From Acidobacteriota bacterium (GTDB taxonomy: Bacteria; Acidobacteriota; Terriglobia; Bryobacterales; Bryobacteraceae): a DNA stretch of 49,916 nt. Position numbers and translations under genes: made by a program. Shown here in pieces: positions 10,872 to 47,694 of this stretch. Numbering within the stretch: the first letter of the stretch is position 1; every line of letters starts with the position of its first letter. A model generated the notes under the pieces. That model was not told the origin of the DNA and searched no databases. It saw only the letters and a program-made list of their open reading frames with translations. The DNA is taken from positions 1 to 49,916 of the forward strand of contig JACQZR010000051.1 of the NCBI GenBank assembly GCA_016213775.1, written 5' to 3'.

Positions 10872-10946
10872 TTAAGAAATATCAATCACTTGCAGGCAGG
10901 AACGACGGAAACACAAGACTTAGCGTATCACGCCGTGGACGCCGGT

Positions 10947-11003
10947 GGACTCCACGAGGCGTATTTTGGGCGTCTGGACTCCACGCGGACTCCAGGACTC
11001 CAC
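10947..11003. repeat. Four direct copies of GGACTCCA(C/G)
   Basis: GGACTCCAC occurs at 10947, 10976 and 10995, and GGACTCCAG at 10987, all in the same orientation within 57 bp. They lie about 75-130 bp from the tRNA-Ala fragment and upstream of nothing coding. Clustered short direct repeats beside an attachment site are typical of integrase arm-type sites; this role is inferred. Confidence 0.7.
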
Positions 11004-11057
11004 ACCTGGGGCTGGCACCCCGCGTGCTTTCACGCGCGCGGTTGCAGGCTGTGGTGA

Positions 11058-11083
11058 TTGTTGTCTGCTGGAGCAGACAACAA
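11058..11083. repeat. Perfect inverted repeat, 12-bp arms, GG spacer
   Basis: TTGTTGTCTGCT is followed by GG and its exact reverse complement. There is no T-tract on either side, so a simple terminator is unlikely. It sits between the GGACTCCA repeats and the 3' end of the integrase gene. It shares the architecture (perfect arms, GG spacer), but not the sequence, of the dyad at 10720. Confidence 0.75.
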
Positions 11084-11268
11084 CGGATTTCTCTATAAGG
11101 ATGATGCCCATGTGGAGTTACCGTTTCGCGACTTCAACTCGCCGGTGCGGGCCGGGAGCAGTTGTCAAGGATTGCTTGACGACTGGATTCCCGCGCGAGA
11201 ATGCGCGGAACGCGATGCGGCATTTGCCTTGGACGGGGGGGACTTGGGGGCCGACGGGAACCTTGAGA

Positions 11269-20002: not shown

Positions 20003-20008
20003 GGAAAA

Positions 20009-20014
20009 CTCCTT
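20009..20014 (-). promoter_or_regulatory. RBS deciding the Argonaute start
   Basis: On the minus strand AAGGAG is followed after 6 nt by GTG (20002). The longer start at GTG 20017 would place this motif inside the coding region and has no comparable signal upstream. Confidence 0.7.
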
Positions 20015-20067
20015 CACGGGATTCCGGCTCCGGCTCAGTTTTGGCCGGAACCACAGCTATCGCCAAA

Positions 20068-29458: not shown

Positions 29459-32400
29459 CCTCAGCCGAAGTACGCGAACAACTGGTAGACGCCCTGCAAC
29501 TCGACCTGGTCGGTCCCACGCCAGAAGGCCTCGGGGATGCGGCCGAGCGGCTGGATCAGGCTCCGTCGCGGTGGTATCTGACCGGCTTCCTCGTGCCTGC
29601 CAACGCGGGACAGACGCAAGTAACCGATGCCGATGCCGACGACGATGTTCTCGAAACGGCGGAACCTCCGGGAGCCACGGACGACGACACGCCGCGAGAA
29701 CGAACAGCTAAACGAGAGCGGCGGCTCCCGAGTTCGATCGGCCTCAGCGTGCTCTTGCCCGGCGAAGCGCGACGGCTGGGTGTGCGAGTTACCTGGGGCG
29801 ACTACCGGTTGGAAGCCACCGAGACCACGGGACAGGAGATCTGGAAGCGCACGGCACGCAATGAAAACGTGGATCTCGACGTGAGCATGCCGGTGAACCA
29901 GCCAATCGAAACCGAGGTGCCGGGGTCGGACGGGTTGTTCGTCGCGCTGCTGGTGAGACCTTTGGGCGCGGTCTTCTCCGAAGCCGGTCTGCCTGCGGGC
30001 GCGAAGACGATCTCCGTGTTTCTGGTCAACAAGCGGCGTCCCGAGCAGAACGACCGGGTGAAGGACCGCGCGTTCGCCTTTCAGGTGCGGCTGGAGCTGC
30101 ATGCGGAGGTTCCGTTTTTGGCGCGTCCCGATATCCGGGGTCTGTTCACCAACGACTGGGACGATGAAGTTGCCGATTTGCAGTACCGCGATTCTGGCGA
30201 ATACTCTGTGGGCCACAACGTATCGACGGAGGCGTGTCTCGATGGCGGCGTGTGCCGCGTAGCGCGCACCTGCTGGATTCCGCGGGCCGAAGTGGAACGG
30301 GTCGAGCCGCCGGCAACGATTCCGAATGTCGAACTGGGCATGAGATCTCTGGAGGGTTTGGCGGACGGGGCGGATGCGTGGGCAAAGCTGGCTGCGTTAC
30401 CGCAAGCGTACCGAAGCCAGTGGATCGCTCCACAGAGAGCGGCGCTGGCTGCGATCTCACAACCCAAGCGGAGGGCAACGGCGCAGATTCTTCTGAATAA
30501 CGCAGATGCGGCGGCCCGGCGGATCGAACGCGGTATTGAACTCTTGCGTGACGATCCGCAAGCTCTGCTGGCCTTCCGTCTCGCCAACCGCGCGATGGCG
30601 GACGCGGCCCGGCAACGCCGAAACGTTCAGCAGCCGGAGTGGTTTCCGTTCCAGCTTGCCTTCATTCTGATGAACCTCGAAGGCATCGTGAATCCTGGAA
30701 GCGCCGACCGGCAGCGGGTGGATTTACTGTTCTTCCCAACCGGCGGCGGCAAGACGGAGGCCTACCTCGGGCTGGCGGCTTTCACGCTTGTGCTGCGCCG
30801 CCTCCGGAATCCGGGCATCACGGGCGCGGGGACCAGCGTGCTGATGCGGTATACGCTGCGATTGCTGACGCTCGACCAACTGGGGCGGGCGGCGACGTTG
30901 ATCTGCGCGCTGGAGTTGATCCGGCAGACGGACCGCGATCTCAATCTGGGCGACTGGCCATTCGAGATCGGGTTGTGGGTCGGGAAGGCGGCGACGCCGA
31001 ATCGGATGGGCAGCACGCGGCAAGGTGAGAACGACGAGGACACCGCGCGCCGCCGCACGCTGAAGTATCTGGCGAACGAGACGCGTTTCCCGCCGGTGCC
31101 GCTCGAAAATTGTCCGTGGTGCGGGAAGGCGTTCAATCGGGACTCCTTCAAACTGGCTCCCAACCAGAACCAGCCTCGGAACCTGCGGGTGAAATGTTCG
31201 GATTTCCGGTGCGCCTTCAGTGGCCGCGAGCGCGATCTGCCCATCGTGGCGGTTGACGAGCCAATCTACCGGAGACTGCCGTGCTTCATTATCGCCACCG
31301 TGGATAAGTTCGCTGCACTGCCGTGGCTGGGGAGGGTAGGCGCCTTCTTCGGGAAGGTGGAGCGCTTCGACCAGGATGGCTTCTATGGGCCGTGCGATCC
31401 GGGGGTCGGGAATGCGCTGCCGGGCGGGAGGCTGCTGCCGCCGGATCTCATTGTGCAGGATGAACTGCACCTGATCTCGGGTCCGCTGGGCACAATCGCC
31501 GGGCTGTATGAAACCGTGATCGACGAGTTGTCTGCCAACGGCGAACTGCGGCCCAAGATCATCTCATCCACGGCGACGGTGCGGAAGGCCGACGCGCAGA
31601 TCCGGGCACTGTTCGGGCGGACGGACGTAGAGATCTTTCCACCGCCAGGGCCGGACAGGAGGAATTCGTTCTTCGCGCAGACGGTACCCGCGGCTGAAAC
31701 GCCCGCGCGGCTGTATGTCGGAGTCGCTGCGCCGGGACGCAACGTGAAATCGGTGCTGCTGCGTGTGTATCTGGCGTTGTTGTGCCGGTCGCATCGTTAT
31801 CGGCAAGATGCTGCTTCGGACCCTTACCGCACGCTGGTGGGATACTTCAACGCGCTGCGGGAACTGGGGGGCGCGCGTCGGCTGATTGAAGACGAAGTGA
31901 AGAACCGCGCTTTCGGATATGCCGACCGAAAGAGGGTCGGAGAGGCGCAGGGTCTGTTCGATAAGCGCGATCTTAACAAGCTGGTCGTCGAACTGACCAG
32001 CCGTGTCGAAACGAGCGACGTCGCGGACGCGAAACGGCGGCTCGATCTGCCAATGACGGATAAGGAATCCGTGGACATTGCGATTGCCACCAACATGATC
32101 AGCGTCGGTCTGGATATCACGCGGTTGGGGCTGATGGTGGTGTTTGGGCAGCCGAAGACAACCGCGGAATACATTCAGGCCACAAGCCGAGTTGGGCGCG
32201 ACAGGAATAAGCCGGGGCTGGTGGTTACGATCCTGAATCCGAACAAGCCGCGCGACCGTTCGCATTTCGAGCGGTTTGCGGCGTATCACGAGAGCTTCTA
32301 TCGCAGCGTGGAGGCAACGAGCGTGACGCCGTTTTCGCCTCGCGCTCTTGATCGCGCACTGGCGGCGGCGACGGTGGCGCTGGCGCGGCATGGCCACAAG

Positions 32401-32811
32401 CCGATGACCAGGCCGGGAGGCGCGGATGCCATCGTCACAGAGCGGACCAATCTGGCGTTTGTGCCGGAAGCGTTAGGACGTCGGGCCGAAATGCACAAGG
32501 CTGGTGACCCGCAGGATCAGGCGGCGTTGCGACAAAACGTTCGCACCAGAACGATTTCCCTGTTGGAGACGTGGGAAAGGGTCTCGGTTGAACAGCAGGC
32601 ACAGACGGTGAGGATGAAGTATTACCAGCGCGAGGGAGATGAATCGGCTTTCTTGCTGCGCGATTACCTGGCAGAGGAGTTGAAGACGCTGCCGCCGTCG
32701 CACTGGAAAGCGAGATTTCGCGCCAAGTGGAGCATGCGGGATGTGGAGCCAGCGGTTAATATCAGCGTCCAAGGGCCGGGACAACAGAATCTGGACGAGG
32801 AGAGCGATTAA
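29455..32811 (+). CDS. drmA: DISARM DrmA, helicase-domain protein
   Basis: A 1118-residue ATPase of the DISARM core. Walker A FFPTGGGKTEAYLGL is near residue 427, DExH-like VQDELHLISGPLG near 667, and motif V/VI VGLDITRLGLMVVFG then YIQATSRVGRDRNKPG near 890-910. A Cys4 zinc-like site (CPWCGKAF at about 552 and KCSDFRC at about 580) lies between the ATPase motifs. The N-terminal about 400 residues are the variable DrmA part. The ATG at 29455 overlaps the drmMI stop (ATGA). DrmA forms the DNA-sensing complex with DrmB. Confidence 0.93.
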   Translation: MTSAEVREQLVDALQLDLVGPTPEGLGDAAERLDQAPSRWYLTGFLVPANAGQTQVTDADADDDVLETAEPPGATDDDTPRERTAKRERRLPSSIGLSVLLPGEARRLGVRVTWGDYRLEATETTGQEIWKRTARNENVDLDVSMPVNQPIETEVPGSDGLFVALLVRPLGAVFSEAGLPAGAKTISVFLVNKRRPEQNDRVKDRAFAFQVRLELHAEVPFLARPDIRGLFTNDWDDEVADLQYRDSGEYSVGHNVSTEACLDGGVCRVARTCWIPRAEVERVEPPATIPNVELGMRSLEGLADGADAWAKLAALPQAYRSQWIAPQRAALAAISQPKRRATAQILLNNADAAARRIERGIELLRDDPQALLAFRLANRAMADAARQRRNVQQPEWFPFQLAFILMNLEGIVNPGSADRQRVDLLFFPTGGGKTEAYLGLAAFTLVLRRLRNPGITGAGTSVLMRYTLRLLTLDQLGRAATLICALELIRQTDRDLNLGDWPFEIGLWVGKAATPNRMGSTRQGENDEDTARRRTLKYLANETRFPPVPLENCPWCGKAFNRDSFKLAPNQNQPRNLRVKCSDFRCAFSGRERDLPIVAVDEPIYRRLPCFIIATVDKFAALPWLGRVGAFFGKVERFDQDGFYGPCDPGVGNALPGGRLLPPDLIVQDELHLISGPLGTIAGLYETVIDELSANGELRPKIISSTATVRKADAQIRALFGRTDVEIFPPPGPDRRNSFFAQTVPAAETPARLYVGVAAPGRNVKSVLLRVYLALLCRSHRYRQDAASDPYRTLVGYFNALRELGGARRLIEDEVKNRAFGYADRKRVGEAQGLFDKRDLNKLVVELTSRVETSDVADAKRRLDLPMTDKESVDIAIATNMISVGLDITRLGLMVVFGQPKTTAEYIQATSRVGRDRNKPGLVVTILNPNKPRDRSHFERFAAYHESFYRSVEATSVTPFSPRALDRALAAATVALARHGHKPMTRPGGADAIVTERTNLAFVPEALGRRAEMHKAGDPQDQAALRQNVRTRTISLLETWERVSVEQQAQTVRMKYYQREGDESAFLLRDYLAEELKTLPPSHWKARFRAKWSMRDVEPAVNISVQGPGQQNLDEESD

Positions 32812-34607
32812 TGGCGCGGCCACAGATCCGTCAGGGACAACTGATTACGACTTTCGGCCCAGGTGCGATGACGGACCTGCCCGAGCGTAGCGTCCTGATC
32901 GCGGGGCTTGATGCTTGGGTGGGAGAGCGCCGGCAGATTCAGGAGCCGCGGCTGGCGCGCAAAGTCGCGCAGCTCTTGGGTGCGCAGACAATTCGGCTGG
33001 AGTGCCCTCCGGAGGCCGAGCGGGATGGCGGGGGCTTCGTACGGTCTTATGTGTTTCCGCTTTGGTTCGTTACGCAGAGCCTAGTACCGGGTCGCCCACC
33101 TGGATGGCGTACACGGCGGCTGGTGCAATGGTCCGGCCTAGAGGATAAAGGCAGGAAGTTCCTGATGGACGACAGGAGCAAGTCGTCGGTAACCCCTGTT
33201 CGTTTTGTGCGGGCGTGCCGGCGGGGGCATCTTGGGGACATCGACTGGCAAGCGTTTGTGCATGGGCAGAATCCGCCGTGCGGACGGGAACTGTACTTCG
33301 ACGAACGCGGCACGAGCGGCGACCTGGGTGAGACCTTTATACGCTGCGGGTGCGGGCTGGAGCGAGCCATGTCGCAGGCGGCTGATCCGAACAGCAGGGC
33401 GCTCGGCGATTGCGACGGGGCGCGGCCATGGCTCGGCCAAGGAAGAGTCGCCGACGAAAGATGCACCGAGAGAAACAGGCTGCTGGTTCGGGCTGCGTCG
33501 AACGCATGGCTGCCTCAGCCGCAAAGGGTGATCTCGCTGCCGGAACGGGGCGAGAGCATCCGGCAGACGGTTGACAGGCTTTGGATGTTTCTGGAGGCGA
33601 CCGAAAGCGCGGAGGATGTTGCGTACGAACGCAGAAAGCCCAAGGTTAACGAGGGACTGGCTGGGCTGACCAACGAAGAAGTGTGGGAGGCGGTCCGCGA
33701 ACGCAAGAATCCAGCGGACTCGGGCGAGAAGCCAGTGAAGCGGGCCGAGATTGAGACGCTGGTCGCGCCCGGAGACCAGATTGGCGAGGACACTCTCGAG
33801 TCCACATTCTTTGCGCGCGTGTTGCCGCAAGCGGAATGGAACCAGCCATGGATGGCGGGGATTGAGCGAGTGCTACTTGTCGAGCGCCTGCGGGAAGTGG
33901 CGGCTCTCGTTGGGTTCACGCGGTTCGAATCGGCATCGGCGGATGCGGAGACGGGCGAACTAGATGCGGGGGTGCGCCGGGCGGATATCTCGCGCCAACC
34001 GGAGTGGGTTCCTGCGGTGGAGAACCGGGGCGAGGGGATTTTCCTGCAGTTCAATCGAGAAGCATTGTTAACGTGGTGGCAGCGGACTGCGGTGGTGGAC
34101 CGCTATGCCGATCTCAAGCGAGGGTTCGACGCCTGGAAACAAGAACACACTTCCAGCGACCGAAGGCTGCCGAGCCCGGAATACCTACTGCTGCATTCGT
34201 TTTCGCATCTGCTGATCACGGCCGTGGCGCTTGAGTGCGGGTATCCGGCGAGTTCGATTATGGAGCGCGTCTACGCGGTGCCACAAGTTGGATATGGCGT
34301 TCTTCTGTATACCGCGAGTTCGGATGCGGAGGGCACGCTCGGAGGATTGGTGCAGGCGGGCAGACGGATTGCGGGATTCGTGCGGAGCGCGCTGGAGTTG
34401 GGAGCGCTTTGCTCGAACGATCCGGTATGCGGGCAGCATAGTCCAGCCAACGTTCTGGAAGGGCGGATGCTGCATGGCGCGGCCTGTCATGGGTGCGTGC
34501 TGATTGCGGAGACGAGTTGCGAACAGGGGAACGACTTCTTGGACCGCGCGCTGGTCGTGCGGACCGTCGCCGGTTTAGGCGCTGAGTTCTTTCCGGATCT
34601 GATATGA
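32811..34607 (+). CDS. drmB: DISARM DrmB, DUF1998 protein
   Basis: A 598-residue protein with the family opening IRQGQLITTFGPGAMTDLPE and a C-terminal DUF1998 domain: LLHSFSHLLITAVALECG near residue 460, then GVLLYTASSDAEGTLGGLV. Its Cys-rich end (LCSNDPVCGQ, ACHGCVLIAETSCEQG) probably binds metal. DrmB is the partner of DrmA in the DISARM core. It overlaps drmA (TAATG) and drmC (ATGA). Confidence 0.93.
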   Translation: MARPQIRQGQLITTFGPGAMTDLPERSVLIAGLDAWVGERRQIQEPRLARKVAQLLGAQTIRLECPPEAERDGGGFVRSYVFPLWFVTQSLVPGRPPGWRTRRLVQWSGLEDKGRKFLMDDRSKSSVTPVRFVRACRRGHLGDIDWQAFVHGQNPPCGRELYFDERGTSGDLGETFIRCGCGLERAMSQAADPNSRALGDCDGARPWLGQGRVADERCTERNRLLVRAASNAWLPQPQRVISLPERGESIRQTVDRLWMFLEATESAEDVAYERRKPKVNEGLAGLTNEEVWEAVRERKNPADSGEKPVKRAEIETLVAPGDQIGEDTLESTFFARVLPQAEWNQPWMAGIERVLLVERLREVAALVGFTRFESASADAETGELDAGVRRADISRQPEWVPAVENRGEGIFLQFNREALLTWWQRTAVVDRYADLKRGFDAWKQEHTSSDRRLPSPEYLLLHSFSHLLITAVALECGYPASSIMERVYAVPQVGYGVLLYTASSDAEGTLGGLVQAGRRIAGFVRSALELGALCSNDPVCGQHSPANVLEGRMLHGAACHGCVLIAETSCEQGNDFLDRALVVRTVAGLGAEFFPDLI

Positions 34608-35371
34608 ATCCGCTGGTGACGCTGGGGGCTTCGGAACTTCGGGCACTGGCGGCAGCCGCCTCGGACGGCAGGCTGAATCCGGCGACGCCTGGACTGGTGG
34701 GACGGTTCGTGTCGGATGGCCCGGCGGTTTCGCGGGCGCTGGTGAAACTGGCGGCATCATCGGGTGGCTCGCTGGCGGCGACATTGGAGTTGCTGGCGGA
34801 AGCCGCGGAGCGGCGCAGTTCAGTGGAAGATCTTGTGGAGTTGGTGCTCACGGGACCGAACACTGGTACGGGGCGCGACACGGGCGTCGTGGTGCGGCAA
34901 TTGTTCCGGGAGGCGCGGACGAGCGTCTGGGTTTGCGGATACAAGCTCTACAATGCGCGGGATCTGTTCGCGGATTTGGCGAGGCCGGAATTGCGTGTGA
35001 AGATGCTTCTGGACATCGGCGATGGCGAGGGGCAGAGCGAAGATGTCGCCGTCCGACGCTTCCTCGAAGACTTCCGGCGATGGCACTGGCCAGAAGGGCA
35101 TGCGCTGCCCGAAATCTGGTACGACCCTCTGTCGCTCCTGCCGCAAGGAGAGCACCGGGCGGTGGCTCATGCAAAGTGCGTCGTTGCGGACGAGCGGATG
35201 CTGTTCGTGTCTTCGGCGAACTTCACTGAGGCTGCTCAAAACCGAAATCTTGAGGCAGGTGTCTTGGTGGATTCCATAACGCTTGCCACCAGGATGGTGC
35301 AGTTCCTTGAAGGCCTGATCCGCGAGCGCCGGGTTCGTTCGGCGTGGCCTAGATTGGGGGCTGGTACGTAG
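34604..35371 (+). CDS. drmC: DISARM DrmC, phospholipase D-like protein
   Basis: A 255-residue protein of the phospholipase D superfamily. One clear HKD motif, HAKCVVAD followed by SSANFTEAAQNRN, is near residue 188. The N-terminal 100 residues are helical and not catalytic. In DISARM, DrmC is often dispensable; a nuclease role is expected from the fold. It is the last gene of the operon and overlaps drmB (ATGA). With it, the class 1 set drmD-drmMI-drmA-drmB-drmC is complete and uninterrupted. Confidence 0.92.
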   Translation: MNPLVTLGASELRALAAAASDGRLNPATPGLVGRFVSDGPAVSRALVKLAASSGGSLAATLELLAEAAERRSSVEDLVELVLTGPNTGTGRDTGVVVRQLFREARTSVWVCGYKLYNARDLFADLARPELRVKMLLDIGDGEGQSEDVAVRRFLEDFRRWHWPEGHALPEIWYDPLSLLPQGEHRAVAHAKCVVADERMLFVSSANFTEAAQNRNLEAGVLVDSITLATRMVQFLEGLIRERRVRSAWPRLGAGT

Positions 35372-35932: not shown

Positions 35933-36955
35933 ATGAGCACCCGTGACAAACTCGACGCCCCGAGGAGCCACCGGCATCCGGATCAGCACCTTCGGTCCCT
36001 ACTTACTGAACCTTGGTATCCCGCGATCATGACTGTGATCGACGCAATCGCAACTTCCTCTATTGACTTCTTCCGCGACCGAGGCATGCGATTCGTCTGG
36101 ACTCCTCTTACCACCGGGACGATCAGTAGTCCGACCGCGCCGGGAAGCGACTCACAACCGGTCAAGATCCGTCTCTGCGGGCGCGACACCTACCTCGCAG
36201 ACTCGATGCAGTTTCTTCTGGAGGCGGCACTTCGGCTACATCCGGGCGGCGTTTATTACATTTCCTGCTCACTAAGGGGAGACGAGCCAGACACACGGCA
36301 CCTCGCCGAATTCATGCACTCAGAGGTCGAGATTCTAGGAGGACTCGAAGACATTCTCTCGCTGGCCGAGGCATATGTCCGGCATCTCGCACGGTACATC
36401 CTCGTAACCATTCCGGATACGGTACTTCTGTTGTGTGGAAGCACCGATCACTTGCGAACGGTTTCAGAACAGTCTGTGTTTCCGCGGATCACATTCGCCG
36501 AGGCGACAGGGCGGCTCTCTCAAATCCCCTCTGCCCTACGAGCGACTTTGCCGGGCGAAGTCGCTCTAACTGCCGAAGGCGAGAGGCAACTCCTTCGTGA
36601 GATTGAGGGACCTCTATGGCTCACGCACTTCCCCTCCAAGACCTCGCCGTTTTATCAGCGACGCAGCACCGAAGAGCACTACACGCTATCGGCGGACCTG
36701 CTTCTGGGGAAAGGCGAAGTGCTGGGTTGCGGTGAACGGTGCGAGACGCGCGGGCAGGTCGAGGATGCACTGAGAGGCCAAAATGTCGACTTTGCTCCAT
36801 ACCAATGGTACCTAGATCTCAAGGATCTATCGCCGCTTCGAACAGCCGGTTTCGGATTGGGAGTGGAGCGCCTGGTGCAATGGATCAGCAAGGCCGAGGA
36901 CATTCGCGACTGCACTCTCTGGATGCGCGACCACCACCACCCCATCGACCCATAA
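35933..36955 (+). CDS. AsnRS/AspRS-like class II synthetase core without anticodon-binding domain
   Basis: A 340-residue class IIb synthetase catalytic domain. Motif 1 region: IDFFRDRGMRFVWTPLTTG (44-62). Motif 2: VYYISCSLRGDEPDTRHLAE (107-126), with the conserved Arg115 and the RHLAEF signature of Asx enzymes. A WLTHFPSKTSPFYQR segment and LLLGKGEVLGCGER follow the AsnRS pattern. Motif 3 is GFGLGVERLVQW (306-317). The N-terminal OB-fold anticodon domain of AsnRS/AspRS is absent, so normal tRNA charging is unlikely while Asx-adenylate formation remains plausible. Archaeal AS-AR asparagine synthetases have the same reduced form and are the main alternative. It opens a five-gene cluster with an MccF-like peptidase, suggesting aspartyl/asparaginyl-nucleotide chemistry (inference). 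Confidence 0.85.
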   Translation: MSTRDKLDAPRSHRHPDQHLRSLLTEPWYPAIMTVIDAIATSSIDFFRDRGMRFVWTPLTTGTISSPTAPGSDSQPVKIRLCGRDTYLADSMQFLLEAALRLHPGGVYYISCSLRGDEPDTRHLAEFMHSEVEILGGLEDILSLAEAYVRHLARYILVTIPDTVLLLCGSTDHLRTVSEQSVFPRITFAEATGRLSQIPSALRATLPGEVALTAEGERQLLREIEGPLWLTHFPSKTSPFYQRRSTEEHYTLSADLLLGKGEVLGCGERCETRGQVEDALRGQNVDFAPYQWYLDLKDLSPLRTAGFGLGVERLVQWISKAEDIRDCTLWMRDHHHPIDP

Positions 36956-36974
36956 TTGCGCAAACGCTCGCTAA

Positions 36975-37004
36975 ATGCTCGGACGACAAAGGAGAATCCA
37001 ATGA
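36975..37004 (+). CDS. Candidate 9-residue mini-ORF (MLGRQRRIQ)
   Basis: A nine-codon frame lies between the synthetase-like gene and the first methyltransferase, its TGA overlapping the ATGATG start of the latter. It has no clear RBS of its own; its sequence contains the RBS of the next gene. It resembles the mini-ORF at 39886 (both read M-x-G-R-x-R-R-I/V). It could be chance or translational coupling. Confidence 0.15.
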   Translation: MLGRQRRIQ

Positions 37005-37879
37005 TGGCACTCTCAGACCTGACGCCTGACGACATCAACCGAATGAGCTATAACGAGCTAATCGGCATTGTGCGAGAAACCAACAGACCACCCGGTGGAC
37101 GTAGGAGCGTCCACGAGATTGCAGCTCGGTGCTTCCTCCGTCCAGAAAGCCGGGTCCTTGACGTTGGCACAAGTACCGGTTTTACAGCCATCGAGCTTGC
37201 GCGCACGGTTGGGTGCGAAATCGTTGGTGTCGACATCAACGAAGAGAGTCTGGAGGAGGCGCGGCGGCGGGCACGCCGCCTCGGTCTGTCTCGAATCTCG
37301 TTCATTCGTGGCGACGCGCACGACCTCGCCTTCGAGGATCGTTCGTTCGATCTCGTTATTGCCGGCAATCTTGTCTCCTTGGTGCCGGACCCGAGCGAGC
37401 TCTTATCTCAACTCGTTCGGCTACTCTCAGCAAATGGCTGCCTAGCGTTGACTCCGATGTACTACATCCAAGCTCCGCCGGTGGATCTTGTGGCGGACGT
37501 CGGCAAGGCGATTAAGGTGGAACTCGCACCTCGCTTCCGAGCTGAGGCGCTCCGTACTCTACGGCTGCCTGATTGCGAGGTGGTCTACAGTGCCGACTTT
37601 GAGTTCGAGGAGGTGACTGAGGATAGGATCGCCGACTTCTGTCAGCAGATTCTAAGTCGAAGTCACCTTGAGTCTCTATTGCCTCGCAGTCGCGACGCGC
37701 TACGGGAGGTCTACCTCTCCTACATGAAGCTGTTTGCGCGGAATCTGTCGCACATGGGGTTCACGATTCTCATACTCCGCCCTGGAACCACCTCCGACGA
37801 CCCCGAGCTCTTCTCAGCAGTAGCCATCCCTGCCGGCGTGACAAGAAATCTGCCGAGAGAAATGGTGGCAAAGCTTTGA
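37001..37879 (+). CDS. Class I SAM-dependent methyltransferase
   Basis: A 292-residue Rossmann-fold methyltransferase. Motif I RVLDVGTSTGFTAIELA is at residues 51-67, followed by the acidic strand end IVGVDINEESLEEA, motif II-like FIRGDAHDLAFEDRSFDLVI and post-motif LALTPMYYIQAPP. The substrate cannot be read from the sequence; an unusually long C-terminal helical part (about 190-270) may bind it. AAAGGAGA (36988-36995) precedes the ATG at 37001. Its stop overlaps the TTG start of the MccF-like gene, so both are translated together. Confidence 0.85.
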   Translation: MMALSDLTPDDINRMSYNELIGIVRETNRPPGGRRSVHEIAARCFLRPESRVLDVGTSTGFTAIELARTVGCEIVGVDINEESLEEARRRARRLGLSRISFIRGDAHDLAFEDRSFDLVIAGNLVSLVPDPSELLSQLVRLLSANGCLALTPMYYIQAPPVDLVADVGKAIKVELAPRFRAEALRTLRLPDCEVVYSADFEFEEVTEDRIADFCQQILSRSHLESLLPRSRDALREVYLSYMKLFARNLSHMGFTILILRPGTTSDDPELFSAVAIPAGVTRNLPREMVAKL

Positions 37880-38928
37880 GCACGCTTCCTACGATTGGAG
37901 AACTTCAACGGCCACCCGCGCTTCAGCAGGGGGATAAAATCGGAATCGTCGCACCGTCGTTCCCGAGTGCAGCCTGGTATCCGGAGCGCTTCGCAAGAGC
38001 GCTTGACGCCCTGACAGAACACCTTCAAGTTACGCCGGTAGTGGCGCAACAGACTCGAATCGCAACCGGTTTTTCTTCTGGTTCTCCTGTTGAACGCGCA
38101 GATGCGCTGGAGATGTTCATGAAGGACCCCTCTATAAAGGCTATCTTCTTCACTACGGGAGGCTTCAACTCAGCTGACCTCCTTCCGCTCATTGACTGGG
38201 GAATTCTCCAGAGACAGCCCAAAATCATTCTGGGTTACAGTGATTTGACTAGTATTCTTATCGCCGGAATGGCTCTCGGTTCCTGTGTCACGTTCTATGG
38301 CCCCACAGTGCTACCGCAGTTCGGCGAGTACCCCCAGCCACTTCCTTACACACTTACTTCGCTTCGCGACGCTGTTATGGCCGGTCGCGCACCCCTTGAT
38401 GTCCCGGATCCGCCATCATGGACAAATGAGTTCCTCGACTGGGGTGGGCCCGAGTGGTCCTCCCGTCCTAGGACCATGTCTTCTCCGGCGAGCAGCGTCG
38501 TAATTCGGCCTGGCAAAGCGCGAGGAAGGTTGTTCGGGGGAAATCTTGAGACTCTGAACTTCCTCGCCGGTACGCGATATCTCTGTGTGCCGGATGAGCT
38601 GGTGCTCTTCTTTGAGGTTACAGCCAATGAGGCTTATCTTCCCCGTGTCCGGCGTGCTCTTCGGCACTTAGAGCAAGTTGGGCTCTTCAACCATATGCGC
38701 GCACTCCTGGTAGGTCGCGCCCCGGATTGTACTCCCGCCTACGGCGTCACCCTTCACGATCTGCTCCAGGAGGTGACCGCAGCCTACTCCGTTCCCGTGA
38801 TCGCCGATCTGCCGTTTGGTCACACCGACCCAATGACCACCTTGCCCATCGGAGTGTTGGCACAAGTAGTCGCGTCTGCCGGTAGCTTCCAGATTCAGAT
38901 ACTTGATTCTGGGGTCGCGGCCGAGTAA
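37876..38928 (+). CDS. MccF-like S66 serine peptidase (LD-carboxypeptidase family)
   Basis: A 350-residue S66 peptidase with a Ser-Glu-His triad at S122 (ILGYSDLTS), E247 (LFFEVTANE) and H316 (PFGHTDPM), close to the spacing in E. coli MccF (118/243/311). Family features GGFNSADLLPLIDW, FGEYPQPLPYT and GGNLETLNFLAGTRY support the MccF subgroup rather than the peptidoglycan LdcA type. MccF cleaves the amide joining Asp to AMP in processed microcin C and so gives self-immunity. In this cluster with an Asx-synthetase-like protein, a similar immunity or processing role is likely (inference). It starts at TTG 37876, overlapping the upstream stop. Confidence 0.87.
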   Translation: MSTLPTIGELQRPPALQQGDKIGIVAPSFPSAAWYPERFARALDALTEHLQVTPVVAQQTRIATGFSSGSPVERADALEMFMKDPSIKAIFFTTGGFNSADLLPLIDWGILQRQPKIILGYSDLTSILIAGMALGSCVTFYGPTVLPQFGEYPQPLPYTLTSLRDAVMAGRAPLDVPDPPSWTNEFLDWGGPEWSSRPRTMSSPASSVVIRPGKARGRLFGGNLETLNFLAGTRYLCVPDELVLFFEVTANEAYLPRVRRALRHLEQVGLFNHMRALLVGRAPDCTPAYGVTLHDLLQEVTAAYSVPVIADLPFGHTDPMTTLPIGVLAQVVASAGSFQIQILDSGVAAE

Positions 38929-38949
38929 CAACAGGTTGGGGATCGTCGT

Positions 38950-39879
38950 ATGCAACACCACACCAAAACTGACAAGCAGTCCGAGACTGGTAGCACCATT
39001 CATGATCATCCCTGGCTTGCTCACCTTATCGATGAGAAGGAGTACCTTCCCCCTTCCTACTACGCCAAATTGCTCAAGCCATACAGAGCGGGCGGCCGGA
39101 ACGATCTTGAGATTTTCGGCGAGTTTCTCTCGAGCCTCGCCCCTATACCAGCACGTGCCTTAGAACTAGGGTGCGGGAGCGGCCGAGCAACATCCGTGGC
39201 ACTCCGCCTATTGCCGACCGTAGAACTGACGGCAGTTGATCTCAGCTCGTCAATGCTCTCGGCTATGCCCCTTGACGGCCGCCTTCGTACCTTGTGCAGT
39301 GACATTTGTGCTTACCTCCTCTCCGCTAAGTGCGAGGCGCCATACGAACTCATCTTCAGTCTCTGGGCCTTCTCGCATTCGGTTCACATGTGGCTTGGGA
39401 GGGCGCGTACTGATCCAACGGTCTTTGATACCGCCGCCCGCGCTGTGCGCACCATGCTGACCGACCGAATCTCGCCAGGTGGTCGTTTTTTCATCATGCA
39501 CTTCGATTCTTTGTCCGAGGAACAGCGAGTAGCAATGCCCCAATGGGCAAAAGTGGATGCGATCTTTTCGGATGTGGAGTCGCAGAGTCCGTCGTTTCGA
39601 CTGATTGCGTCAATTATCGAAGACCTGAATCGCCGTGGTCGGGTTGAAGCAGGCGTCACCCACTTTCAAGGGGAGGCCATAGAGTACGACGGAATTGAGC
39701 AGGCGCTTGAGACTTATTTTAATTTCCACCTGGAGGGCCGGCTGAATCGTGCGCCCGCAGCCGAACTCGAGAAGGCAGTTTCCGAAGTCACTTCGGCACT
39801 CGAGCGACATCAAGACAGGAGCGGCCGAATTGTCGTGGTTCCGTCCTGGTTCGTTTTCTCGGGCACGCGAGTCGAGTAA
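38950..39879 (+). CDS. Second class I SAM-dependent methyltransferase
   Basis: A 309-residue methyltransferase unlike the first one in the cluster. Motif I ARALELGCGSGRATSVALRL lies at residues 68-87, and the strand end LTAVDLSSSMLSAM follows. A RISPGGRFFIMHFDSLSEEQ segment corresponds to the post-III region. An N-terminal part (1-60: HDHPWLAHLIDEKEYLPPSY) seems to form a cap. Substrate unknown. The ATG at 38950 is 21 nt after the MccF-like stop and in the same direction, so it is probably in the same operon. Confidence 0.83.
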   Translation: MQHHTKTDKQSETGSTIHDHPWLAHLIDEKEYLPPSYYAKLLKPYRAGGRNDLEIFGEFLSSLAPIPARALELGCGSGRATSVALRLLPTVELTAVDLSSSMLSAMPLDGRLRTLCSDICAYLLSAKCEAPYELIFSLWAFSHSVHMWLGRARTDPTVFDTAARAVRTMLTDRISPGGRFFIMHFDSLSEEQRVAMPQWAKVDAIFSDVESQSPSFRLIASIIEDLNRRGRVEAGVTHFQGEAIEYDGIEQALETYFNFHLEGRLNRAPAAELEKAVSEVTSALERHQDRSGRIVVVPSWFVFSGTRVE

Positions 39880-39885
39880 CGCTCC

Positions 39886-39921
39886 ATGCGCGGGCGATCA
39901 CGGCGCGTTATAAGGTTTTAA
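39886..39921 (+). CDS. Candidate 11-residue mini-ORF (MRGRSRRVIRF)
   Basis: A short frame in the 53-bp gap between the second methyltransferase and the MetRS-like gene. It is strongly basic and shares M-x-G-R-x-R-R-I/V with the mini-ORF at 36975. No RBS is visible. Microcin C-type precursors can be this small, but the C-terminal Asn that MccB-type enzymes need is missing. Confidence 0.15.
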   Translation: MRGRSRRVIRF

Positions 39922-39932
39922 GCATCTTCGAC

Positions 39933-41417
39933 ATGTCAACGGTAGTCACATCGGCCTTTCCTTTCGTCCCGGCGACCATCAGTCTCGCCAACATGGCAAG
40001 CACCTATGTTCCGGCGGATTCCTACACGCGGCTCCTGCGTTTATTCGGCCGGGACGCTGTTCATGTCACTGGAATCGACGTCCACAGCCAGTTTGTAAGC
40101 ACGGACGGCAAGACTAGGGACGGGTCGGAGGCTTTTTGTTCACAGAAGTGCTTGGAATACCAGCGGGCTTTTGAGTCACTTAACATCCAATTCGACGCAA
40201 TCGCGCGCACGGACGAAACCCACCATACCGAGGCGGTACGCGAAGCGCTGCAGGTTCTCCTCGCACACGGTGCCATCACGCAAAGACAGATATCGGTGGT
40301 GCGATGTGATGGTTGCGGGGCGTTTCCGGCTCCACGGCTTACCGAATCGTTCGATTTTGCCCGCTTGGGACTCGAAGGAGATGGTCATGCTGGCGCGGAG
40401 CCGCGATGTCCATACTGCCGGGCGCACCAATTCAGCGATGTCCTTTCCACTCATTATTTTCTTGTTCTTGAACCCTATCGCAACAAACTCCTCGCCGAAT
40501 GCGAACGCGTCGTCCGGGTAGAGGCCGCGCGACCTCTGATTCGGAGTTGGCTCGCCGAGCCACTTGCCGATTGGAACATCTCGCGCGACAATTCCATCGG
40601 AATTTCTTTAGAGCCTCAATTGCCGGGGAAGTCATTGTACTTGTGGTTTGAGTCGCTGATTGGATACTGGTCAATGGCGCGTCTGGCCGCAGCGAATCCC
40701 AAGAAGTTTGTTCATTTCTTTGGACAAAACATCCTGTACTACCATGCAGTAGTCTGGCCCGTGTTGTACGGTTTATGTTATGGCGGGGGGGCGAGCGACA
40801 TTCTCGCCGCAGTTCGCGGTCTTGTTGACAAGCAACGCAGTGATCCAGAACTGCTGGACATCGACCAGGCAGTGCGTTCGTACCCGCCAGACTACCTCCG
40901 CTTCTACTTGGTGTGGTCAGGAACTGACGGGCTGACAGATGTTCGCCTCACCCGCGCCACGCTAGTAGATGTCGTCAATGGAATTCTCTGCGACAGCGCC
41001 GGGAACCTTCTTAGACGTCTTGCTGTCCTTCTGCAGAAGCGAGCAAGAGCCGGCGTTCAACTCTCAAGCGAGGACGAACTGGTACAGACGTTTTACAAGG
41101 TGTTGATTCCTGCTCTCTTGCAGGCGATGGACGAGGCTCTGGTGGGAAAGTGCTTGAGGCTCATACTGGACTACGTCAGCCAGTTGAACCGTATGATGGC
41201 GGCCGAGAGGCTTTACGAAGCGGAGTCGGCAGCGGTGAACGGTCGCATCGCATTCATGCTCGCCACGGTTCTGACGCTGTTGAGCCCATTCGTGCCGCGA
41301 CTCGTTGAGGAGTACAACATCTTCGTCGGGTGGAGCCCAAGGTCGCTCGCGGACATCATGCGAGCTGCCGAATGTCCGCTACGACAAGAGGTCGGGCTCT
41401 GGAAGAAGCTGACGTAA
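39933..41417 (+). CDS. MetRS paralogue with degenerate HIGH and KMSKS motifs
   Basis: A 494-residue class I synthetase with the full MetRS layout. The N-terminal VTSAFPF...YVPADSYTRLLRLFG, the GxDxH element GIDVH, a zinc knuckle-like pair (CDGC 125-128, CPYC 159-162), DWNISRDNSIGI, LYLWFESLIGYW and HFFGQNILYYHAVVWP all align to MetRS. But HIGH reads SLAN (17-20) and the KMSKS position reads KQRSD (300-304). The anticodon-domain NxYxxxxxPW reads N-R-M-M-A-A-E-R-L. It therefore should not charge tRNA-Met and probably has a new role in this cluster (scaffold, binding or different acyl transfer; inference). It is the last gene of the operon. Confidence 0.87.
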   Translation: MSTVVTSAFPFVPATISLANMASTYVPADSYTRLLRLFGRDAVHVTGIDVHSQFVSTDGKTRDGSEAFCSQKCLEYQRAFESLNIQFDAIARTDETHHTEAVREALQVLLAHGAITQRQISVVRCDGCGAFPAPRLTESFDFARLGLEGDGHAGAEPRCPYCRAHQFSDVLSTHYFLVLEPYRNKLLAECERVVRVEAARPLIRSWLAEPLADWNISRDNSIGISLEPQLPGKSLYLWFESLIGYWSMARLAAANPKKFVHFFGQNILYYHAVVWPVLYGLCYGGGASDILAAVRGLVDKQRSDPELLDIDQAVRSYPPDYLRFYLVWSGTDGLTDVRLTRATLVDVVNGILCDSAGNLLRRLAVLLQKRARAGVQLSSEDELVQTFYKVLIPALLQAMDEALVGKCLRLILDYVSQLNRMMAAERLYEAESAAVNGRIAFMLATVLTLLSPFVPRLVEEYNIFVGWSPRSLADIMRAAECPLRQEVGLWKKLT

Positions 41418-42015: not shown

Positions 42016-44046
42016 CTATGGATTGGTGTAGAGCAAGATGTAGCCTATGGTCGTGCCTACTGGATTCTTCACTTTCAACACGCCAGCCCATCCGTTCGGA
42101 TTGGTGGCACTCATTAGTTCGGCCAAACGGTAACCGTTGCCGGTACCGCCTGCGATGATCAGTTCGCCTCCTGCGGTGACTTCCAGTAGGGTATGATCCG
42201 CGAGGTTTGATCCGGGGCCGTACACGCGCAACGGCGACTCCGCGGTGTCCTCTGCGGAGATCACGACTGCGCCGCAGGCGACTCCGGCAGCCACGTTCGC
42301 CGTCTGCGACGCCCACGTGCGGGCGTATCCGATCTTGGGGTCGTTGCCCTGTTGGAGGCACGCGCCCCACAGGTGGATCGAACCGGTGGTCCAGTCGTCG
42401 CCATTCGAATCGTATTGGCGCACGACGATCCAGAGGCCGGTCTGCCCGCCAGCCAGAGTGCCGGTTATCTTGAACCGCTGCCACGCTGTCGTGATTGTGA
42501 CCTGCGTCGGCCCCGCCAGGTATGCACCATAGGCGTTGTTGACCATGGCGAGAGACGCCGTCCGGGTTCCTGAGGCGACCTTCGCCCAGACATAGAACGT
42601 GTACGTGCCGCCGTCCACAAGACCCGCGATTTGTTGTTGGATAATCGGCGTCGCCGTGCTCACAGTCACTGTGTCAGCGGTCGTGTTGCCGTCCGGAGCG
42701 GTGGTGCTGTTCGCGGTCACCGAACAGCTCCCGCCGTTCTTGTCCCACGTCCCGACGCTGAAGTCTTCGGAGTACTTCGCCATGTTCTCGAACGCACCAC
42801 CGACTGTCTGGTAGGGCCCGCACTCGACGAAAGCCTGATCCCCACCGACGTGCAGAGCGCCGGTGAAGGTGTCGCCGGCCATATTCGCTGGCGTGTAGCC
42901 GAGAGCGCCAGTCACGTCTCCAGAAGAGAGTGCGGCGACGTTAACTGCCGCGCCCGCCGAAGCCTGGCGCAGAAGGCCGGGGCCGGTTGCGGAGAGATCT
43001 GCTCCAGATCCACCCCGCGCGAGCGCCAAGGAGCCGGAGACGATGTCTGTTGCGGCGTGGGTGTGGGTTCCGAGGGAGATCACTCCAGCGGCCAGCGATA
43101 GCCCGGAGCCGACACTCAGTTCGGCGAAAGTGTCGGGCGAAGGCGAGTAGAGGAGTTTGTTGGCGGCGACCGTGGTCAGTCCGGTGCCGCCGCGACTCAC
43201 GCCGAAGGCACCGCTCACGATGTCACCGGCGACATGACTGTGCGCGGGCAGGTCGGAGGCGGCAAGCGACGCACCGGCTGTGACGCGGCCCTTGGCGTCC
43301 ACGGTGACCTTGGGGTACGTGCCAGGCGTGACTGCCGTGTTCGCCAGCGAGAGCACACCGGCGGCGACCGCCAGCCCGCCGACCGCATCGATCTGGACGA
43401 TGCCCTTGGTTCCGGTCGTGGCATCCGGGTACGAGAACGCGCCGAACGTCTGGCCAACCGCGAAGTCGATGATTGCTTCCATGGCGACGTGGTTCGCGGC
43501 GTTCAGGCTCATGCCGAGGTCGCCGGAGTTGTCGGCCTTACGCCACCGCAACCCCCCGTCATTGGGCAGGCGCACGAGGCCGGTTCCAGCCTTGGCTCCC
43601 GCGCCGAACTCCGCGCCGTCCACGAAAGACTTCAGGCCAGTGATCGTGACCGCGCCGTCCTTGCGGACGTAGTTGCGCGCGGACGTCACACCAACCTCAT
43701 TCTCGATGGCGAGGACCGCCGACTGGAGGGCGGTCAAGAAGCCGGAGACCATGTTCGCCTTCACCGCCACGCCGGAGGAGTGCTGCGCCGTCGACGTTCC
43801 AAACGCTCCCCGCTGGCATCCGGTGAACTGCGTCGCTGTCTTCGCGGTGTAAATGATCAACTCGTCGTTAATCGAGAGAATGCCGTACGTGGGGGCGAAG
43901 CCATCGGTGGACGCGACGCTGACGGTCGAGTCGCCCGCGAGGATCTGTTGCGAAGCCGTTGTGTCGAGCGGCTTGGTCGAGAACGCATCCGCTGGTGAAT
44001 ACAGGCTCGAAGCGTCGTCAATCGCGCTTGGGTAGTTAGTCGCCAT
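42016..44046 (-). CDS. Phage tail fibre-like protein
   Basis: A 676-residue protein. An N-terminal beta module (DSTVSVASTDGFAP... ELIIYTAKTATQFTGCQRGA) is shared with the neighbouring protein. The middle has trimeric fibre repeats with SRGGTGLTTV and ARGGSGAD, spaced by HTHAATDIVSGS and HSHVAGDIVSGA. The C-terminal 300 residues contain a carbohydrate-binding-like beta-sandwich (SEDFSVGTWDKNGGSCSV... TAWQRFKITGTLAGGQ). It probably binds the host surface. Its start overlaps the end of the upstream 1179-residue gene by 11 nt. Confidence 0.8.
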   Translation of the reverse strand: MATNYPSAIDDASSLYSPADAFSTKPLDTTASQQILAGDSTVSVASTDGFAPTYGILSINDELIIYTAKTATQFTGCQRGAFGTSTAQHSSGVAVKANMVSGFLTALQSAVLAIENEVGVTSARNYVRKDGAVTITGLKSFVDGAEFGAGAKAGTGLVRLPNDGGLRWRKADNSGDLGMSLNAANHVAMEAIIDFAVGQTFGAFSYPDATTGTKGIVQIDAVGGLAVAAGVLSLANTAVTPGTYPKVTVDAKGRVTAGASLAASDLPAHSHVAGDIVSGAFGVSRGGTGLTTVAANKLLYSPSPDTFAELSVGSGLSLAAGVISLGTHTHAATDIVSGSLALARGGSGADLSATGPGLLRQASAGAAVNVAALSSGDVTGALGYTPANMAGDTFTGALHVGGDQAFVECGPYQTVGGAFENMAKYSEDFSVGTWDKNGGSCSVTANSTTAPDGNTTADTVTVSTATPIIQQQIAGLVDGGTYTFYVWAKVASGTRTASLAMVNNAYGAYLAGPTQVTITTAWQRFKITGTLAGGQTGLWIVVRQYDSNGDDWTTGSIHLWGACLQQGNDPKIGYARTWASQTANVAAGVACGAVVISAEDTAESPLRVYGPGSNLADHTLLEVTAGGELIIAGGTGNGYRLAELMSATNPNGWAGVLKVKNPVGTTIGYILLYTNP

Positions 44047-47000
44047 TGAGCTTTCTCTCGTTCAACTCGAAGCGGTTCATTGCGCCCGATGCGGTTGAGG
44101 CTACCGGCACCGCGACGGTGGCCTCCAGCGCACGCGCCACGCGAGGCCTGTGATACGCGACCGCTGTGGCCCCTGCTTGGGTCCATGCTTCGAGCGGGAT
44201 CGGTCTGCTGTTCAGGCAGAACTGATCGAAAGCCCAGAAGCACATCGAATAGAGCTTCGCCGCGCGCCACATCCCGTATGCCTGCGCGATGGGTGGGTCC
44301 GGTGGGCCGTAGATGCCCGCCAGGTAGATGCACTCCGCAGCGGGCCGGCCAAGGACCTCGTTCGCGTACCTTATGGTCTGACGCATCCGCACGGAGTTCT
44401 TCTGCCACACGTCATAATCGAATCCCTCGCAGCGGAAGTACTTGATCCCGTACGAGGAGGTCTTCCACTCGTTCGGCAGGTTGACGTGCATCAAGAGCTT
44501 CCGGAATGCAGCGTCCGGGGCGGGCTTCCCTTGGTTCGCGTCGAGCGGCCAGAGGCATTCGAACACGGCGGTCGGATGGTAGGAGCGGACATGCGCCATC
44601 ACATCGGCGCAGTACTCCCAGATGCGGTCGCGCAGAAAATCCGCGGTCCCGAACGGGTGCGCCGGATCGCCCGCCGGATCGTCCGTGTTGGCGGTGAACG
44701 GCCAGATCTGGTGCCCCTTCGCGGCTTGGAAGGTATCGATAGTTTCCTGATCGTAGAAGCCCATCCCGCCGTTCGGGTCCTGCGTGGTGTTCGGGAAGTA
44801 CCACCACTGCGTCTCGCCGAACTGAAGGACGACCGGCGCGCCCGCCGCCGCGATCTCGTCGGCGCATTCCTTATACATCTGGCGCAGGTAGTTCCGGACG
44901 CGCTGCCCGAAGTGCATCTGGTGCGACGGGATCTCCAGAAACACGTCTGCGCCTGGCTGGACGACGCCACCGGTGTACAGCAGGTACTTCGCCCGCATTG
45001 CGGTCGGAGGATTGTAGACCTCCATCGAGAACGCAAACGACGCGGTGATGCCCGCCGACTGAAACTGGCCGGCAAGGTCGCGAATCCACTTCCGCGCGCC
45101 CTCGGTCATGACCGGCGAGACGGAGTCGATCAACTCCCAATCGCCCTCGCTGCCCGCTGTTCCGAGGTTGTCCGTCAGCGTGAGTGTTACGGAGTTCGGC
45201 GCGCCGACAGAGATCGATGGGAACGTCCACGAGGGGGCCTTCGACTGGATGCGCAGCGTCGCGCTGGTTCCGAAATTATCATCGGCCCAAACGCCCACGA
45301 ACGTGCCGTTGAGCGCGGCGCGCATCTGGCTCACGATGCTCTGAAGTGTTTCGCCGTAACCGATGGCGTGGTTGAGGGTCGTCCCGGAAATCGTGATAGA
45401 CGCCACGTCCCCCGGAACCGGACTGCCCGAGAACGCGATGGTCGCGTAGGGGTACGTTGCGCCTACGCGCCGCCGCTTGTTGTTCCAGAAGACGCCCATG
45501 TACACGTCGGCATGACCCTGCAGCCCGAGCTTCTGGAGGTGCCAGAGGTGCCAGGCGGGGGGCTTCTTGTAGCCGTGGTCGGTGTCGAAATCGATGGCGA
45601 GCGACACGTCCGAAAGGACCTCCGGCGCGTCCGGAACGTCCTGCGGCACCATCGGCCATAGGTAATCGAAGTAGAAGTAGTACCCGGTTGACGCAGCGTT
45701 CTTGTCGAATAGGGCGGTGATCTCGACGATGTGGTTTCCGGCCGCGACGTTGCCGCGAACCTTCAGGTTCGCCGTGGTGCCGCCGAACTCTGCGAGGTAG
45801 AGATCGTGCGCGGTGACGACGCCGTCCACCGAGACGTTGATCTTTCCACAGTCGGTGTACAGGAACGTCCCGAGATACAGATCGTGCGTTTCAGACTTCG
45901 AGTAGGTGATCCGCACCTTGCGAACGTCGAGCGCGTTGGCGGGTGCAGTACGTTTCGCGTGGCCCGCGCTCCACCATTGCGTCGGGAAGCCGCCCGCGTA
46001 TTTGTAGCTCTCCCAGAAGCCGGTGTACTTGCACCGGCCATCGGACTCCTCGATGCGCGGCGCGGCACCACCAACTTTGAGGGTGCGGTCGCCGGTGACC
46101 GTGATGTTCGAGATTGTAGCGGCCCACTCCGCGTCGGAGGCGAAGCCGCTCATGGGCGAGAGCTTCTTTACGCGGGTTCCGGCCGCCCAGGTGCCGGGCG
46201 TCGAGGACTGGTAGCCACGCTCGACCGTGATTTGCGTCGGCGAATCCAGGGAGACAAGGCGCACGCGCTCCTCAGCCGTCGAAGTGCCGATGAAGTACCG
46301 GCCTCCAGAGAGTTTCGATGAGTCGTCCACCTGCCAGACGGTGTCATTCGGACCCACGCCGGTGGTGAGGAAACAGCCATCTTCCAATTCCTGCTCCGTG
46401 ACCTCGAAGCGCGGAGCGAAGACCATGTACATCTTGCGGCAGTCGTTCATCGGCACCGTGCGGCCGAGCTTGTCGAGGAGGGGCTGCGTGAAATCGAGGG
46501 TGATGTGGTACTTGCTGTCGTTGTCGCCGCCAGAGAAACGCCGCGACGTACCGCTGCCGTCAGACCAGTCGATCTGCTGTGACCCAGGCGGGTCCGGTGG
46601 GTTGGCGTCGATGTGGCCTGACGTGACCGTCACCCGGTCGATGTTGCCGAGCTTGCCGTAGCGCGCGGCTGGAAGCGCGGGCGTCGCAAACTGAAGCTGG
46701 AGGCTGGCCACTGAAGTCGAGAACGCCGTCGCGGTCGCCGCGATGACACCGGATTGGTCGGGACCGAACCGGCCCGCGACCGGGTCGCCAGGAGTGTTGA
46801 TGATTTGGGCGAACTTCTGGAGCAGATGCTTTGCGCCCAACTGGAGCGTGACGAAACTTCCGGCGGGATGGCTCATGGTGACCACGCAGCGGATCGTGCC
46901 TGCGCCGACGGCCTCGACGCGCACCAGTTCTTCGTTGGTGCCGGTGCGCTCGATGTAGACGTAGTCGCCGACACCAATTCCCGCCGTGCTCGCGACCGGA

Positions 47001-47575: not shown

Positions 47576-47580
47576 GTAAA

Positions 47581-47694
47581 TCAGAAGTTGGTTGGCAGGA
47601 AGTACGGCGACCCGAACAGCGGAATCTTCGCCTGCGCCCGTGCGTCCAGAACTGCCCGATGATACAGCTCAAATGCCCGGACGAAAGTTTCAGC
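47581..47694 (-). pseudogene. 3' remnant of a tail gene
   Basis: Directly after the FRG gene's stop a frame with tail-gene character continues to a stop 5 nt before the 1179-residue gene: AETFVRAFELYHRAVLDARA then IPLFGSPYFLPTNF. It has no start codon or RBS of its own, and its 5' part would lie inside the FRG gene in another frame. I read it as the end of a gene whose beginning was lost when the FRG gene came in. Confidence 0.45.

Follow-up and report, generated by a model that had tools for sequence, protein, structure and literature searches.

A compact agrocin-84-like gene cluster in an Acidobacteriota genome, with a degenerate MetRS-like protein and a predicted methionyl-adenylate mimic as product

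The window analysed here, a stretch of 49,916 nucleotides from an Acidobacteriota bacterium of the family Bryobacteraceae (GenBank assembly GCA_016213775.1, contig JACQZR010000051.1), carries five tightly packed genes on the forward strand (35933-41417), encoding an asparaginyl-tRNA synthetase (AsnRS)-like enzyme related to AgnA of the biocontrol antibiotic agrocin 84, two S-adenosylmethionine (SAM) methyltransferases (MT1 and MT2), an S66 peptidase resembling MccF of microcin C, and a degenerate protein resembling methionyl-tRNA synthetase (MetRS). Judged from sequence, and with slightly better than even confidence, this cluster is a compact, horizontally spread representative of the agrocin 84 (AgnA) kind, whose product would be a mimic of methionyl-adenosine monophosphate (methionyl-AMP) with a phosphorus-nitrogen (P-N) bond that targets MetRS. 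As far as the searches reach, neither the MetRS-like protein nor the five-gene unit around it has been described. An earlier sequence-only reading of the window had reported five same-strand genes, two of whose junctions overlap or nearly abut, and each open reading frame (ORF) was found at the place and on the strand that it gave:

35933..36955, forward strand: gene 1, AgnA-like enzyme, a class II AsnRS-type catalytic core without anticodon-binding domain
37001..37879, forward strand (ORF open from the TTG at 36956): gene 2, MT1, SAM methyltransferase, with a match to Arad_15003
37876..38928, forward strand: gene 3, MccF-like S66 peptidase with S66 N and C domains, overlapping gene 2
38950..39879, forward strand: gene 4, MT2, second SAM methyltransferase, of a rare family, 21 bases after gene 3
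39933..41417, forward strand: gene 5, MetRS-like protein, Pfam tRNA-synt_1g, 53 bases after gene 4
39981..39992, forward strand: HIGH-equivalent position of gene 5, Ser-Leu-Ala-Asn, located by aligning the protein with MetG of E. coli and further MetRS

The likelier start of MT1, within a frame open over 36956-37879, is the ATG at 37001, which is preceded by AGGAG at 36990-36994.

The tie to agrocin 84 runs through gene 1, which belongs to the class II D/K/N synthetase core family, lacks the N-terminal anticodon-binding domain and shares 46.4% identity over 97% with AgnA of pAgK84 in a plasmid search that matched 74 records; the best six matches were agrocin-type plasmids, one of them annotating agnA, Agrocin84-synthetase. 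The available passages of PMC4392301 describe AgnA as a truncated AsnRS homologue without the anticodon-binding domain. Two further genes have counterparts on the same plasmid: MT1 is 46% identical over 267 amino acids to Arad_15003, the methyltransferase following agnA, and the gene 3 peptidase is 48% identical over 331 amino acids to AgnC5, annotated as MccF-like. With gene 1 as an AgnA homologue, three of the five genes therefore fit a described kind of cluster, the agrocin 84 region of pAgK84, and the earlier statement that no described system has this composition has to be withdrawn. The window cluster differs from agrocin 84 in comprising five genes only and in adding MT2 and the degenerate MetRS-like protein; AgnC1, AgnC4 and AgnC7 gave no match to the window ORFs at E 1e-5. 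Because three genes have agrocin 84 counterparts and the same five stand together in two other loci (L050 and L159, below), the gene set goes beyond chance.

When 84,980 species genomes were scanned for AgnA, 184 of the 206 pattern matches proved to be AgnA-like stretches, and 86 loci besides the window (the best 80 of the 184 stretches and six plasmid loci) were examined. The class II residues R115, E262, R269 and R313 and the AsnRS-type E97 are conserved in all 87 AgnA rows, and D90, D120, H129 and G136 distinguish these from the AsnRS rows shown, the roles of the single AsnRS and aspartyl-tRNA synthetase residues in this alignment being our assumption. In the tree, the split between the AgnA rows and the four AsnRS rows has 100/100 support; the window and K84 proteins are two long branches that join, and their own placements are unsure. 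Since its AsnRS-type pocket and class II residues are intact, AgnA is a natural candidate for an MccB-like step on free asparagine, and gene 1 is predicted to activate asparagine and form a P-N linked nucleotide.

Most of the first-listed plasmid homologues carry the name asparagine synthetase A, as would be expected if gene 1 were an ordinary asparagine synthetase, or an AsnRS fragment, among unrelated neighbours. That explanation is hardly tenable, being contradicted by the separate clade, by scores under the NCBIfam cut-offs (214.5 versus 322 at best), by the three agrocin-region counterparts and by the recurrence of the five-gene set; an ordinary asparagine synthetase is ruled out by the scores and clade together with the conserved and distinguishing residues. 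The sequence-only reading had named such an enzyme, or a lack of co-occurrence elsewhere, as what would overturn it. What was found is an AgnA clade apart from AsnRS, and in four further loci (L050, L060, L062 and L159) a MetRS-like gene lies no more than 10 kb from AgnA. A phage search with AgnA gave at most 31% identity among the matches listed (8 of 10 records).

The proposed pathway draws on microcin C. According to the available passages of PMC12250964, MccB activates the last asparagine of the peptide and, by way of a succinimide intermediate, spends a second ATP on making the P-N bond, and MccF cleaves the terminal aspartate off processed microcin C. In the window cluster, AgnA would activate free asparagine with ATP and build an N-acylphosphoramidate (P-N) nucleotide, in parallel with the action of MccB on the last asparagine of the peptide; MT1 and MT2 would methylate either the product or an intermediate on the way to it; the MccF-like peptidase would remove or hydrolyse the acyl group, as trimming, self-protection or both; and the MetRS-like protein, forming no adenylate, would select and bind methionine, or an acyl group resembling it, and direct this to the phosphoramidate nucleotide. 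The product would be a stable methionyl-AMP mimic with MetRS as its target. Gene content, homology, the residues kept and lost, co-occurrence and a patchy horizontal spread come from computation; the chemistry and the target are inferred from them. The aminoacyl-nucleotide product with MccF-type protection proposed in the sequence-only reading thus survives as a likely outline, with the correction that its Asx enzyme is an AgnA homologue. Its observation that MccB is absent also stands, with no ThiF domain among 18 Pfam-scanned window proteins, but AgnA is expected to stand in for MccB, and the absence therefore does not count against chemistry of the microcin C type. Shared with microcin C (MccABCDEF) are the MccF-type peptidase and the predicted asparagine-derived N-acylphosphoramidate nucleotide, whereas microcin C uses the ThiF-type MccB and the window cluster an AsnRS-type enzyme (none of its five proteins is ThiF-like, and the relative L060 does have ThiF). 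Phosmidosine, a prolyl, O-methylated phosphoramidate, resembles the window cluster in chemistry only. The available passages of PMC6429109 describe it as a nucleotide antibiotic with a P-N bond, and the literature passages available name no gene cluster for it. The five-gene system makes agrocin-type P-N bond construction testable.

The description of gene 3 as an S66 peptidase with an MccF-like triad was borne out: among solved structures its closest matches are those of MccF proteins, at E 7.6e-48, and the triad falls at S122, E247 and H316, the catalytic roles of which we presume. The two methyltransferases show no BLAST similarity to each other, in line with the earlier claim that they are unrelated. 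MT2 shares 34% identity with homologues in the AgnA loci L050 and L093, and L159 carries it too. It did not match any of the three pAgK84 methyltransferases tested, found a single record (26%) in the plasmid search, was detected by profile among 292 relatives of the L093 genome only in the L093 genome itself, and matched only generic methyltransferases among solved structures.

Gene 5 departs from ordinary MetRS at its catalytic motifs. When the proteins are aligned with MetG of E. coli and further MetRS, the HIGH position reads SLAN in the window, CIAH in L060, CIAH in L062 and RYTN in L050, the KMSKS loop is missing from all four, and the aspartate of GKD is replaced by asparagine in 4/4. 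Judged by these motifs, the MetRS-like protein would be unable to form an adenylate, and the claim that neither synthetase paralogue is suited to normal tRNA charging holds on sequence grounds. Among the residues that we take to form the methionine pocket, D52 and W253 have retained equivalents in all four proteins, and Y260, H301 and W305 in three (window, L060 and L062). Four cysteines, presumably zinc ligands, are invariant across the MetRS-like proteins, and the roles of the other single MetRS residues used in the alignment are likewise assumed. The gene is under selection, since nonsynonymous divergence in the Vibrionaceae pair (pN 0.122) lies far under synonymous divergence (pS 0.784). 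A Met-tRNA-dependent transfer, as in cyclodipeptide synthases, was weighed and left as a mere possibility, because the positions aligned with N391 and W461, which we take to be the MetRS anticodon residues, are changed.

A retained methionine pocket combined with lost catalytic motifs would also suit an immunity decoy, which would bind a methionyl-nucleotide toxin and either pass it to the MccF-like peptidase or shield the real MetRS. This is the main rival explanation, unlikely but to be taken seriously, and it gains from the overlap of the S66 gene with the MetRS-like gene in L050, L060, L062 and L159 and from the absence of a resistant MetRS from the window. It accounts less well for the nucleotide side of the protein, which is altered too (HIGH gone, GKD aspartate to asparagine), and for L060, where the MetRS-like protein would be redundant beside an intact MetRS. 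Natural-product ligases with MetRS-like domains are known from the available passages of PMC11705231, and the MetRS/cupin hydrazine synthetases described there share with the window cluster the recruitment of a MetRS-like protein for natural-product synthesis. An ATP-dependent acyl ligase of that type, joining two amino acids through a hydrazine or ester, is nevertheless very improbable here: the hydrazine synthetases need ATP and have a fused or paired cupin, whereas HIGH and KMSKS are gone from the window protein and no cupin domain was found among the 18 proteins scanned. Returning to the transfer role proposed above, a new enzyme class in which an ATP-free class I fold moves methionine, perhaps from a pre-activated donor, onto an AgnA-made, MccF-freed phosphoramidate, together with a modular antibiotic family whose synthetases reveal its targets, is put forward tentatively and would be the less expected outcome. 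Such a protein would be unusual, as a class I synthetase retained for an adenylation-free job. In the open-access literature searched, the passages available held no description of AgnA homologues beyond K84 or of this MetRS-like protein.

The MetRS-like family is separated from ordinary MetRS by profile A2, which was built from four of its members, so that their scores (708-889 bits) are high by construction: three builders score 769, 889 and 708 bits, the sole independent member, in genome G600, scores 494 bits, and the best ordinary MetRS among P. galatheae relatives reaches 172 bits. AgnB2, the resistant leucyl-tRNA synthetase of the agrocin 84 cluster, matches the MetRS-like protein over a 40-residue stretch only. 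Among viral contigs, 56 pattern matches to the MetRS-like protein included none that was confirmed, and a plasmid search gave at most 25% identity with none clearly unlike ordinary MetRS among the best 30 of 263 listed.

The same five genes stand side by side in L050, an alphaproteobacterial metagenome-assembled genome, and in L159, the locus of genome G600, a relative of the L050 genome, which was found through the MetRS-like profile alone, AgnA not being used as bait, and in which the row reads MetRS-like, S66, MT2, MT1, AgnA. Just the five cluster genes match between L159 and L050 (62-76% identity) and the remaining ORFs of the fetched stretches do not, so the five appear to travel as a unit. 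L093 holds AgnA, MT1, a GNAT-MT2 fusion and S66, and no MetRS-like gene was found in its fetched stretch. L060, from Photobacterium galatheae, and L062 hold MetRS-like, S66, AgnA and MT1 genes within larger gene sets in which no MT2 match was found; that of L060 includes a MATE transporter and two proteins to which the family search assigned no family. ThiF-rhodanese, ThiS, TfuA and YcaO genes surround AgnA in L060 (2902-9775), which suggests sulphur insertion into its product.

The distribution pattern is one of horizontal spread of the cluster, as indicated by the few members of the A2 family among relatives, by the confinement of AgnA and by base composition. The window genome was the single carrier of an A2 member found in its set of 300 relatives, as was P. 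galatheae in its set of 295, and two carriers were found among 268 relatives of the L050 genome; of 101 genomes, that of the window was alone in matching gene 1 at AgnA level, with no other above 97 bits; and the guanine-cytosine (GC) content of the cluster is 56.8% versus 60.3% for the window.

The available passages of PMC7916415 and PMC5059758 describe the toxic part of agrocin 84 as a leucyl-adenylate analogue that hits leucyl-tRNA synthetase (LeuRS), with AgnB2 as a resistant LeuRS, and those of PMC4392301 state that AgnB2 confers self-immunity. MetRS as the target of the window product is pointed to by L060, which holds an intact MetRS (10832-12532) beside its MetRS-like gene, if this is read as the resistant LeuRS of agrocin 84 is. 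It is the only intact MetRS found in the P. galatheae draft, where a search with E. coli MetG did not find a housekeeping metG and a draft gap is possible. In Vibrio ostreicida metG is present, along with another intact MetRS gene that lies about 248 kb from the cluster on the contig they share. An intact MetRS near AgnA, with the degenerate form absent, was seen in L083, L086, L087 and L094, and in L092 the MetRS is cut at the stretch end.

Agrocin 84 is treated as a single system in the available passages of the literature, whereas AgnA here belongs to a widespread family in which the neighbouring synthetase varies. Among the 86 AgnA loci, S66 homologues (E < 1e-10) occur in 54, concentrated beside AgnA, and MT1 homologues (E < 1e-20) in 35, 30 of these within 2.5 kb of AgnA. 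By ORF clustering, the top families besides AgnA were S66 (58 loci), MT1 (35) and a third family (17), five members of which are weak matches to MT1; of these three families the window belongs to S66 and MT1. Neighbour counts are possibly low and high-GC fusion frames need checking, because ORF picking failed to pick AgnA at 10 of 87 loci; tblastn recovered AgnA at each of the 86 loci other than the window. Comparison with the synthetases of E. coli revealed a further synthetase homologue in 45 loci, in 40 of them within 7.5 kb, the types including Leu, Ala, Pro, Met, Phe, Glu, Tyr, His, Lys, Gly, Cys, Asp and Asn, and some being surely housekeeping, as in the Patescibacteria locus L059.

Pairs of a fuller and a weaker or shorter synthetase of the same type were counted by hand in 10 of the 86 loci (Ala in L025, L026, L098 and L104; Pro in L030, L031, L069 and L078; Met in L060; Phe in L040), L106 being excluded because its second GluRS (glutamyl-tRNA synthetase) extends up to the edge of the fetched sequence, and L078 being included though the cut-off scored both its copies full. 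Such pairs fit immunity plus biosynthesis. A rule based on score and length, which lumps in some housekeeping genes, gave 15 loci with both kinds, 15 with the fuller only and 15 with the weaker only. The synthetase label requires 42 changes on the AgnA tree, fewer than in any of 200 shuffles, which averaged 45.3, so synthetase type is only slightly clustered, with frequent turnover. S66 adjoins synthetase homologues in 10/42 cases versus 27/400 for other genes (p = 0.001), two of them in one frame. If the proposal is right, the likely targets of many unknown antibiotics could be read from the genome.

Fusion frames were seen in several of these loci. An AlaRS (alanyl-tRNA synthetase)-type core and an MccF-like S66 share one frame in two Streptomyces, in L071 (18595-20790, forward strand) and L098 (1782-4358, reverse strand), and others join GNAT to AgnA (L028, 9395-10990), GNAT to MT2 (L093, 4816-6261) and ATP-grasp to MT1 (L048, 2774-5110). 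The GNAT of the AgnA and MT2 fusions is reminiscent of the MccE immunity domain.

Several observations weigh against the proposal of an agrocin-type cluster directed at MetRS. Agrocin 84 has the resistant LeuRS AgnB2, whereas the window cluster has only the degenerate MetRS-like protein; the window is without an intact resistant MetRS and its genome has a single ordinary MetRS, so that protection would rest on the MccF-like protein. The equivalents of Y260, H301 and W305 are absent from the alphaproteobacterial-type MetRS-like homologues of L050 and L159, so methionine specificity may fail family-wide, and in the window protein the Y15 equivalent is phenylalanine. The motif-2 residue E117 is replaced by aspartate in the window AgnA, alone among 87 rows. 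As to the wider family, synthetase density speaks for the proposal by rising towards AgnA, from 2.35 per 100 kb at 7.5-10.5 kb to 6.1 in the nearest 2.5 kb, but has distance from AgnA as its sole control, with no random-genome control; in L024 and L033 a LeuRS is accompanied by a core resembling prolyl-tRNA synthetase, which the simple model leaves unexplained; and K84 has no truncated synthetase core. The aligned class II cores mostly retain the motif-2 and motif-3 arginines, at positions that we assume, and may therefore still use ATP, unlike the MetRS-like protein; the AlaRS-type cores of L104 and L080 are without the motif-3 arginine. A crude hydropathy count predicted no multi-pass protein within about 10 kb of the window cluster; the same count predicted none near agnA in K84 and found one in only 25 of the 86 loci.

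Immediately upstream of the cluster, the window carries a DISARM set (DrmD, DrmMI, DrmA, DrmB and DrmC; 22245-35371, forward strand). An intracellular defence or suicide module, in which the nucleotide would be produced upon phage infection with MccF as antidote, could be supposed from this set and the other possible defence genes adjoining the cluster, from the DNA methylase and Mrr genes near the L050 cluster and from the lack of a predicted multi-pass protein near the window cluster. It is very improbable, as a DISARM homologue (E 1e-5) was found in 0/86 other AgnA loci among the picked ORFs, L159 and L050 share the five cluster genes only within the fetched stretches, and agrocin 84 is secreted by K84 according to the available passages of PMC5059758. 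A stable link between DISARM and the cluster is ruled out by the same 0/86 loci. Other possible defence genes of the window, on the reverse strand, are a Piwi-domain protein (17699-20017) near a UvrD/GajB-like helicase (12627-14294). Downstream, at 42016-49159 on the reverse strand, lie genes for a non-contractile tail sheath TIM-barrel protein, a carbohydrate-binding-domain protein and an FRG-domain protein with a match to PDC-S15.

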